Source of the DNA: Watersipora subatra
Lineage: Eukaryota; Bryozoa; Gymnolaemata; Cheilostomatida; Watersiporidae
Assembly: GCF_963576615.1 (NCBI RefSeq)
Contig: NC_088708.1
Location: forward strand, 7,378,001-7,442,000
Direction: 5' to 3'
Length of the DNA stretch: 64,000 bases
Below, one piece after another: positions 31,596 to 57,954 of the stretch; position 1 is the stretch's first letter, and the number at the start of each line of letters is the position of its first letter. Under the pieces are notes generated by a model that made no database searches, had not been told where the DNA came from, and saw only the letters and a program-made list of their open reading frames with translations. The translations under genes and the position numbers were made by a program.

Positions 31596-32915
31596 ATGCC
31601 TCTACCTACAACCTTACCCTCAGACTATAGCAAAACGTCTGCTCTTGATATGTCAAATCACTACTATAACTCGGAGCCTGGCAAGTACTCCTCGCCGCCG
31701 AGGGCCGGAGATGCGCTTCCCTACAGCGTGGCCTCGTTGCCTAACGGAGAAAATGCTGGTATCGTTGCTCAAGCTCATGTCGCCGGCATGTTTCCAAGAT
31801 TTCCAATTTATGACCGTCTAGACATCCCAAAACCTGGTTACGAAGCAGAAAATCTCAGTACAACAGAGGCGTTTATGCGGTCGTATAGTACTAGTAGCAA
31901 TGGGAGTTGTCCCAATCCATACTCTCCTCAGGAAAGACTCCATCCACCTGTACATCAACAGACAACAAGAGCAATCCCTCCAGGAGCCTACCCTTCACAA
32001 GCGGTCATGTCCAACACAAACCCGGCCGGTGTGCCGATATATCCTTGGATGCGTTCAAACATAAGTGGTAAGTTGTAGACGAGATATGGAACTGTTTTAT
32101 TGTCGTATAACAACTAGCAGCTTGAAATATTTTTATTTCTAGCTCAAGGCTTTAGCTTGCAGACAACTGACCTCATTTGAGAGATTAGGTGTTATATCAG
32201 CCGCAACCATGTGATCCATGCTCCATGTACCTTAAGTACACAATTTTTTGCTCTCTGTAAAATATTGATTAAATAAATGAGCAAATCAGAATGCTAGAAA
32301 CTGTGCTTTTAATCACAAGAAGGTGAAACGCCATCATAATCTGTATATATATGGTCATATGTCAATATTATTTTATTAAAATTATATTTGCTTACCACGG
32401 ACACAAGGAGACATTAATGCAATTTCGTTAACAGTGGATTAATATATTATTAATATTTTTAAGAAATAGCGTTAGAACTAACGGTTATCAATATGCCAAA
32501 CTAATTACCACACTATTCTGTCAAATTTATTTATTAATAAATTATATATAGCATACTACATACATCATTATTACACCAATAACAGTAAAGATAATGTATG
32601 TAATACTAATATATCTGTTTTGTTCCAGACTTGACTGGCTATGAACAGAAGCGTACCAGGCAGACATACACACGCTACCAGACTTTAGAACTCGAGAAGG
32701 AATTTCACTATAACCGATATCTGACGAGACGGCGTCGGATAGAAATCGCTCACACACTCGGGCTAACTGAGAGACAAATAAAGATTTGGTTTCAAAATCG
32801 ACGAATGAAATGGAAGAAGGAAAACAATATACCAAAATTGACTGGCCCAAACCAAAAACTAGATTTACCAAACAAATCCGAGCCTAACAGCCCACAGTCG
32901 GGTAGCATGGATTGA
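31596..32915 (+). CDS. Lox5: Lox5-type Hox transcription factor (two exons: 31596-32067, 32629-32915)
   Basis: A 252-residue sequence-specific transcription factor of the central Hox class; nuclear. Exon 1 carries a tyrosine/serine-rich N-terminus, [12 protein letters not shown] (residues 66-77) and the hexapeptide YPWM (149-152), which contacts PBC/Exd partners. The intron splits codon 158, 11 residues before the homeodomain (164-223), with consensus G|GTAAGT and TTCCAG|A ends. The homeodomain has Arg5, Ile47, Trp48, Gln50, Asn51 and [26 protein letters not shown] follows; KLTGP is the Lox5 signature peptide and separates it from Antp. Unusual residues are Tyr22 (usually Phe) and Thr37 (usually Ala). 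The start at 31596 is the first in-frame Met; Met19 (MSNHYYNS, at 31650) resembles other Hox N-termini and is an alternative. Every essential residue is present, so it looks functional. Confidence 0.93.
32068..32628 (+). other. Lox5 intron (561 bp, phase 1)
   Basis: Begins GTAAGT and ends TTTTGTTCCAG. It sits between hexapeptide and homeodomain, the usual Hox intron position. The inside is AT-rich without repeats or genes. Confidence 0.9.
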
Positions 32916-33660
32916 CGAGGGGAGGATAGGCCCTCCCTGAATTGACATTACCTCAGCTCATAGGCCTAGGCCTTAGCCCAACTCTCTAAGAGCTGTGTTG
33001 AGCTGCAAACCATTATTTATTGGCCTTTGCTGTTCTCACTGACAGCATTCGACCTACAAGCTATCACACTGGAGAATTATCTTCCACGGCCGACTCAATC
33101 AAATTTTGAAAAGCTCAAAATTATTAAAATCGACGAAAGTTTAAGAAACTGTCGGGTCAGGTACAGGATGTCTCCACACATTGCTCAATGCGGGCGACTG
33201 GCTAACAAGGTCAACAACCTCTTTCTTATCATAATTATTTCTATTCATTATTAATTACTTTGTTTCACGCTGCGGCTAAGCTAAAAAACTTTTTCAATCA
33301 ATTTTAGTCATAATAGTGTATTTTTTCTGAGATAGGCTTTTTTTTAGTTTTTTGATGCTTTAGTCGGAGTAGAGTTGGTATGTGTTACTAAAGTAGATCT
33401 CATTTAGTCAAACTTCATGTTCAGCCCAGCAAATAGAATCTCTTACCATGTGCAATATTATTAGAGGACAAGCCCTAGCTGACTGCACCTCAAATGCAAA
33501 TTATTTTTGCTATCAATGTTCTCCTATTTTTTACTCTGCCAAGCCTCAATTGTTTTTGTTATCCGCTGGTTTGTGATAAAAGCACACACTTTGTATATTT
33601 TGTAAAGTAGTAAGGGCAGCGTCTGCTGTTCGAATAAACATCTCATTCAATATATTAAAC
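32916..33660 (+). other. Probable Lox5 3' UTR
   Basis: The sequence follows the TGA stop without further coding signal and runs to an AATAAA at 33633-33638. The open frame 33027-33254 lies in it, lacks domain features and is probably accidental. Confidence 0.5.
33633..33638 (+). terminator. Candidate Lox5 poly(A) signal
   Basis: AATAAA, 720 bp after the stop, with T-rich sequence and GTGTTATTTTT about 70 bp downstream. It is the first canonical hexamer after the gene that I noticed. Confidence 0.45.
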
Positions 33661-57300: not shown

Positions 57301-57876
57301 AAGCATTTATGAGCAGAGGATAAGGTGACTGAGGCAGCCAGAGGTACGCAGCCAGCGCTCTGGACTAGATCAGTAACGAAATACAAGGTCGCTGACAGTG
57401 GTGACAGCGGCTCAGCTGACAGCGGTGACAGCAGCTCAGCTGGAGTCTTGGAGGACAGGAAGCCGCTTGTTGGGCTTACGAGTGCATCTCAATATCTCAT
57501 TAAGTAAGCTGGGAGCTGAGAGGAAGGGGCCTCATCGAATCAAGTCTGCACCTCCTTGTCGTGTTGCTTTTGGCTGACTATCAAGTAGCTACATACATAC
57601 ACTTTCAGCTGAATTCAATTTCTCTAAACAAACTTTTAATTGGACATTTTCTTTTGTGCTGTTATTGAAAACATCCTCTTAGATGTTCCAGTTGATTTAG
57701 CGAGTTGGCATCGCGTTCGTAATTCTACCTGTCCAGCTTGATCAGTCTGCACTCGCTCATCAAAATGTTATTGTAGATCAATTAGATTGGACCTCCAGCC
57801 TTCACCTGCGCCGCTAATAATAGCGTAGCTTACAGGCAAATCACCTGCAAGAGCCTGTCTGGAATGTCACTTACTG
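54301..57876. other. Noncoding, no gene recognised
   Basis: No domain-bearing frame. A short GACAGCGG/CAGCTGACAGC repetition lies near 57398-57440. The 200 bp before the mir-10 hairpin (57655-57840) are unique and GC-balanced and may be part of the primary transcript's promoter. Confidence 0.4.
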
Positions 57877-57954
57877 CCACCATCTTCAACCCTGTAGATT
57901 CGAATTTGCTTGCGGTGTCAGATGGCAAATTCTTCTCTACAAGGTACAAGGTGG
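57877..57954 (+). ncRNA. mir-10: mir-10 microRNA precursor hairpin
   Basis: The 5' arm reads ACCCTGTAGATTCGAA and continues TTTGCT (57889-57910). It matches bilaterian miR-10 (seed CCCTGTA intact) except for a C-to-T at position 12 and a change near the 3' end. The 3' arm (about 57926-57947, CAAATTCTTCTCTACAAGGT) pairs along nearly its full length, leaving a loop of about 15 nt; the lower stem is closed by CCACC (57877-57881) with GGTGG (57950-57954). miR-10 sits in Hox clusters in bilaterians and regulates Hox and other mRNAs. Here it is downstream of Lox5 on the same strand. The overlapping minus-strand frame (57830-58051) is accidental. Confidence 0.92.

Follow-up and report, generated by a model that had tools for sequence, protein, structure and literature searches.

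A Hox cluster without a recognisable Scr between Lox5 and mir-10 in the bryozoan Watersipora subatra

Bryozoan Hox complements and the W. subatra cluster

In a canonical bilaterian Hox cluster, Scr (Hox5) is expected between Lox5 and mir-10. In bryozoans, the loss of Scr, Antp, lab, Hox3, Lox2, and Post1 has been published for the phylum, and Scr is absent from 4 genomes and 35 transcriptomes according to the sections of that survey drawn on here (Saadi et al. 2023, PMC10675955). Its three cheilostomes carry pb, Dfda, Lox5, and Post2 on one chromosome in one orientation, have Dfdb on a separate chromosome or scaffold, and are reported without Scr, Antp, lab, Lox2, and Post1 (PMC10675955). Phoronids are also without scr (PMC7011278, PMC9484238): Scr and Post1 are both missing from Phoronis australis and Phoronopsis harmeri (PMC7011278), whereas Hox3 and Antp are kept, unlike in bryozoans as reported (PMC10675955). 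Saadi et al. argue for a loss of Scr common to bryozoans and phoronids (PMC10675955). Such a shared loss sits badly with a position of bryozoans beside brachiopods, a tie for which gene-linkage work is cited (PMC7618685), and the phylogeny is debated.

The window analysed here is a stretch of 64,000 nucleotides on chromosome 1 (C1) of the cheilostome bryozoan Watersipora subatra (C1:7378001-7442000). A profile scan of the window and 200 kb of flanks (110 kb left, 90 kb right) covered 264 kb (C1:7268001-7532000), with 0 N throughout, and gave the order Post2 - Lox5 - mir-10 - Dfd - homeobox X - pb, all on the + strand. The Post2 homeodomain frame (C1:7370767, +) lies 7.2 kb past the left end of the window, with a frame taken as Post2 exon 1 at C1:7365425, and the Lox5 homeodomain exon is at C1:7410610 (+). 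To the right of the window are the Dfd (Dfda) homeodomain exon at C1:7451091 (+), with a YPWM exon near 7449853, homeobox X at C1:7477818-7478318 (+; window coordinate 99818-100318, outside the window), and the intron-split homeodomain of pb at C1:7491060 and 7494369 (+). The spacing is 39.4 kb from Post2 to Lox5, 25.0 kb from Lox5 to mir-10, 15.1 kb from mir-10 to the Dfd homeodomain exon, 26.4 kb from Dfd to X, and 12.7 kb from X to pb. No Scr, Antp, Lox4, Lox2, or lab was found in the 264 kb, which reach 37 kb to the right of pb.

A preliminary description of the window had seen no Antp upstream of Lox5 and had proposed looking at the neighbours past both window ends and at the gene order of relatives. 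The absence of Antp held, with Post2 as the nearest Hox gene found leftward; the neighbours proved to be Post2 on the left and Dfd, X, and pb on the right, on the same strand; and order and strand agree with those of the three published cheilostomes (PMC10675955). The window covers the middle of a Hox cluster that is reduced and retains the ancestral gene order. No Lox4 was seen, as in two Bugula/Bugulina genomes and unlike in Membranipora (PMC10675955). The loss of Scr in bryozoans was already known, and W. subatra adds another family in which it is confirmed. Neither Watersipora nor microRNAs, mir-10 included, appear in the main text of Saadi et al. (PMC10675955). Lewin et al. 2025 (Genome Research) used W. 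subatra, as a passage in PMC7618685 indicates, and may describe the cluster, so the species-level description given here is not necessarily the first.

Several other features were observed in and around the cluster. A protein kinase exon, CDK-like by eye, at C1:7339292-7339900 (-) belongs to a cluster-flanking gene about 25.5 kb left of the putative Post2 exon 1. At window 1047-6291, a series of + strand frames resembles the decayed remains of a gene or of a mobile element; the three frames compared with Pfam matched no family at cut-off. Between mir-10 and Dfd, a frame at C1:7446817-7447284 (window 68817) has a weak reverse-transcriptase zinc-finger match, below cut-off, which hints at a retroelement remnant within the cluster. 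Long minisatellites lie within the Hox cluster at window 18377-20238, 12404-13064, 29414-29842, and 36261-36874.

Lox5, mir-10, and the interval between them

Lox5 consists of two exons with a 252 aa product. Exon 1 (31596-32067, +) runs from ATG to a GTAAGT donor at 32068 and carries the YPWM hexapeptide, as IYPWM, at 32040; exon 2 (32629-32915, +) holds the homeodomain (Pfam match 32649-32819), KLTGP at 32835-32849, and the stop. KLTGP after the homeodomain is a Lox5 motif (PMC5431905), and here it forms part of NNIPKLTGP shortly past the homeodomain. The nearest reference to the homeodomain was Antp, and grouping with Hox5 was rejected (AU p 0.013) in a test of 22 homeodomains, reference sequences among them, and 60 columns, with groups that had been chosen once an earlier tree was known. 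The only column separating the reference Hox4 from the reference Hox5 pairs is position 22, where all three W. subatra genes, Lox5 included, carry the Hox4 letter. Judged by KLTGP, a central-class homeodomain, and YPWM, the predicted protein is lophotrochozoan Hox6/7 and not Hox5. The gene has one intron, and its product compares with 242-259 aa, encoded with one or two introns, in the three cheilostomes of Saadi et al. (PMC10675955).

The mir-10 hairpin was predicted at 57881-57954 (+), with a mature-like 5p arm at 57888-57909. The arm contains ACCCTGT, which we take to be the mir-10 seed, and shows one mismatch in 16 to ACCCTGTAGATCCGAA, presumably the mir-10 mature core. The hairpin folded at -35.4 kcal/mol (z -4.91), and 0 of 200 shuffles were equally good. 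Against Rfam RF00104, it scored 31.7 bits (E 1.8e-5 for the 1 kb searched, 0.0011 over the entire window). The curated gathering score is higher, at 47.5, so that a default Rfam scan does not list the hairpin. A lax Rfam scan of the window returned 18 rows, of which 17 were chance-like microRNA matches to the minisatellite at 29.6-29.8 kb (29.4-29.8 kb in full extent), a palindromic repeat, and the remaining row was mir-10. Despite the sub-gathering Rfam score, we take the predicted mir-10 as real because of the stability of the hairpin and because, across the 783.7 Mb of the genome, the pattern of its 16-base core matched without mismatch at this one place. The pattern was drawn to admit mir-100 too, and no zero-mismatch mir-100 core was found genome-wide; mir-100 may have diverged or been lost in W. 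subatra. No 7-base mir-10 seed site was present in the 2 kb downstream of Post2, Lox5, Dfd, X, or pb, genes with unmapped 3' UTRs, and a single 6-mer seed match in these stretches lay downstream of pb. In the literature, judged mostly from titles and the starts of abstracts, no account was found of mir-10 beside Dfd in a bryozoan Hox cluster.

The interval between the two genes (32916-57880, 24.97 kb) contains 0 N and several minisatellites, among them a 28-bp repeat of about 22 copies at 36261-36874. A HMMER profile built from ten homeodomains, run with filters off over all frames of at least 15 codons, gave no homeodomain hit there at E up to 10, and no [YFVL]PWM was present. These empty scans bear out the earlier observation that Lox5 and mir-10 lie on one strand with no homeodomain frame in the 25 kb between them. 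The interval holds 11 stop-to-stop frames of at least 95 codons, compared with a mean of 3.9 and a maximum of 9 in 50 first-order Markov simulations. Two of the 11 overlap minisatellites (36449-36853 and part of 53943-54317), and none of the remaining nine contains a homeodomain.

A search of the whole assembly with an Scr homeodomain had also been proposed. The genome searched comprised 783,720,542 bases in 239 contigs; the searches score only candidates preselected by a loose first step, and absence from them is thus not strict. With the Scr query, 48 scored candidates gave 45 matches at E<=10, and no further Hox5-type homeodomain was among them. The top matches, over 63-64 residues, were Dfdb on chromosome 4 (C4:9624640, 83%), Lox5 (83%), and Dfda (81%), and the next whole-domain match reached 59%. 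Pieces of at least 60% were pb (68%, 47 residues) and three of 17-32 residues (63-71%), two of which are halves of other homeodomains; the third, of 17 residues, is at C1:27399603. A Pfam homeodomain search of the genome gave 68 matches from 123 scored candidates. We read 48 of the 68 (41 at 40 places, 2 more, and 5 in the cluster), with a homeodomain translation obtained from 39 of the 40 places, and saw no Scr, Antp, Lox4, or lab by eye among these 48; other matches we took to be Gbx, Evx, Mox, Mnx, Six, and Cdx. None of the other 20 reached 40% in the Scr search, and 0.3 kb past one of them (C1:16536483) lay a piece with 52% over 27 residues. As a positive control, the intron-split homeodomains of pb and Cdx were recovered by the same searches, indicating that an Scr divided by an intron ought to have come up too. 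BUSCO completeness of the assembly is 83.4%, with 8.0% missing (PMC12902671), and the expected site of Scr is gap-free.

The homeobox between Dfd and pb

Homeobox X sits between Dfd and pb on the Hox strand, that is, in the Hox3 slot. Its homeodomain is intact (Pfam 68.2 bits), and no second copy was present among 26 genome matches, the next being 40% identical across the homeodomain plus a few residues. About 0.0034 chance homeobox matches are expected in the 39.7 kb gap between Dfd and pb (68 matches per 783.7 Mb), a rough figure since 68 is a lower bound and includes half-domains. The homeodomain exon of X opens with a phase-1 acceptor, and those of Post2, Lox5, Dfda, Dfdb, and pb appear alike, a matching donor having been seen for Lox5, Dfda, and Dfdb, with Post2 and pb judged from the acceptor.

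X found no place in a tree of 61 homeodomains, where its end branch (3.32) exceeded that of bicoid (2.02). None of the five groupings tested for X was rejected by the AU test (SIX p 0.476, Dfd 0.321, Hox3 0.315, Hesx1 0.305, pb 0.271), and the likelihood loss was smallest for SIX (0.50), with 4.66 for Hox3. The best simple identities were 26/60 with BARHL and 25/60 with HESX1. Among the best 60 of 152 matches in a PDB sequence search at E<=0.01, DUX4, an engrailed construct, HESX1, and BARHL2 came out on top, pointing to no single class. No [YFVL]PWM was found between Dfd and X, and pb was likewise without one in the same scan; a looser YPWM scan of the 12.7 kb before pb found none. As the scans found none for pb either, the missing YPWM of X weighs little.

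At C1:7463940-7464206, 13.6 kb upstream of X, a coding-looking frame with DYPWGG and a strong GTATGT donor was observed. Its GC content is 0.543, compared with 0.38-0.39 in the flanks; it has no second copy, its only other genome match having an E of 4.3, and it matched 0 Pfam families. The frame ends in phase 0, which allows no direct splice to X, and it is possibly the first exon of X although the phases do not join directly.

Insect zen and bicoid are fast-evolving Hox3 derivatives. Expansions of Hox3 are described from Lepidoptera (PMC6118893). X is like these derivatives in being a highly diverged homeobox in the Hox3 slot, and unlike them in that it is not tied to Hox3 by sequence. We regard it as possible, though somewhat doubtful, that X represents a relict Hox3, so changed in bryozoans that it is no longer recognisable as such. 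Its position hints at this reading; its sequence fits no class, and X is not filed here as Hox3. Against a relict Hox3 stand the class-neutral sequence, slightly nearer to SIX than to Hox3 by likelihood, and the finding of no YPWM hexapeptide. Saadi et al. report Hox3 as lost, and their sections drawn on here name no additional homeobox between Dfd and pb (PMC10675955); moreover, no account of an extra homeobox in a bryozoan Hox cluster was found in the literature, again as judged mostly from titles and abstract starts.

Fate of Scr and of its neighbours

Scr was very probably lost in an ancestor of the bryozoans, while Lox5, mir-10, and Dfd retained their ancestral order and orientation. The preliminary description had left a choice between a lost Scr, a moved Scr, and a rearranged mir-10 or Lox5, and of these the loss has stood. 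Order and strand are canonical on both sides of the interval, which argues against a rearrangement of mir-10 or Lox5. An assembly gap was rejected as well, the interval and the 264 kb being free of N. The genome-wide query yielded no further Hox5-type homeodomain, and this argues against relocation. A relocated Scr might be seen in Dfdb, which lies dispersed on chromosome 4 (C4:9624661, -; C4:9624640-9624834, -) and has a YPWM exon of its own: genome-wide it gave the top match to the Scr query, and it sits on a different chromosome from the cluster. However, its homeodomain is 92% identical to that of Dfda, its tail KGRLPEIKSQ echoes KGRIPEVKSQ of Dfda, and its grouping with Hox5 was rejected (AU p 0.033) whereas a Hox4 grouping with Dfda was not (p 0.22). 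Published cheilostomes also have Dfdb apart from the cluster (PMC10675955), and we read this gene as a second Dfd copy and consider it very unlikely to be Scr.

An Scr still in place, diverged past recognition or split over tiny exons, seems equally improbable to us. A strongly diverged Scr would escape the searches, homeobox X nearby shows that extreme divergence is possible, and the interval exceeds the simulations in long frames; on the other side, the filters-off profile scan down to 15-codon frames and the [YFVL]PWM scan were both empty there. Least probable of all, and hardly credible, is a misassembly or local rearrangement through which the assembled haplotype came to be without its Scr. 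For the primary haplotype by itself, k-mer completeness is 69.65%, rising to 98.05% with the alternate (PMC12902671), which leaves some room for such an event, but the 264 kb are without N and the agreement with the three other cheilostomes (PMC10675955) speaks against it.

If Scr was lost, the loss would date to an ancestor of the bryozoans and perhaps already to one common with phoronids, an age that draws on the published surveys. The former Scr site would now be DNA without a recognisable gene, with minisatellites. The kept order of the neighbours would fit continued selection on the remaining cluster and mir-10, and mir-10 may have been retained because it has targets besides Scr or because it contributes to regulating Dfd.

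Scr is expressed in the shell-forming tissue of brachiopods (PMC10675955, PMC7011278, PMC9484238), and its absence common to phoronids and bryozoans is used as evidence on the relationships of the phyla and on the evolution of mineral skeletons. If X were a relict Hox3, Hox3 would have been transformed and not lost, one more ancestral slot would have been kept than published, and the published list of bryozoan Hox losses would need correction. The gap-free succession of Lox5 and mir-10 in W. subatra suggests that mir-10 can outlive its neighbour Scr.
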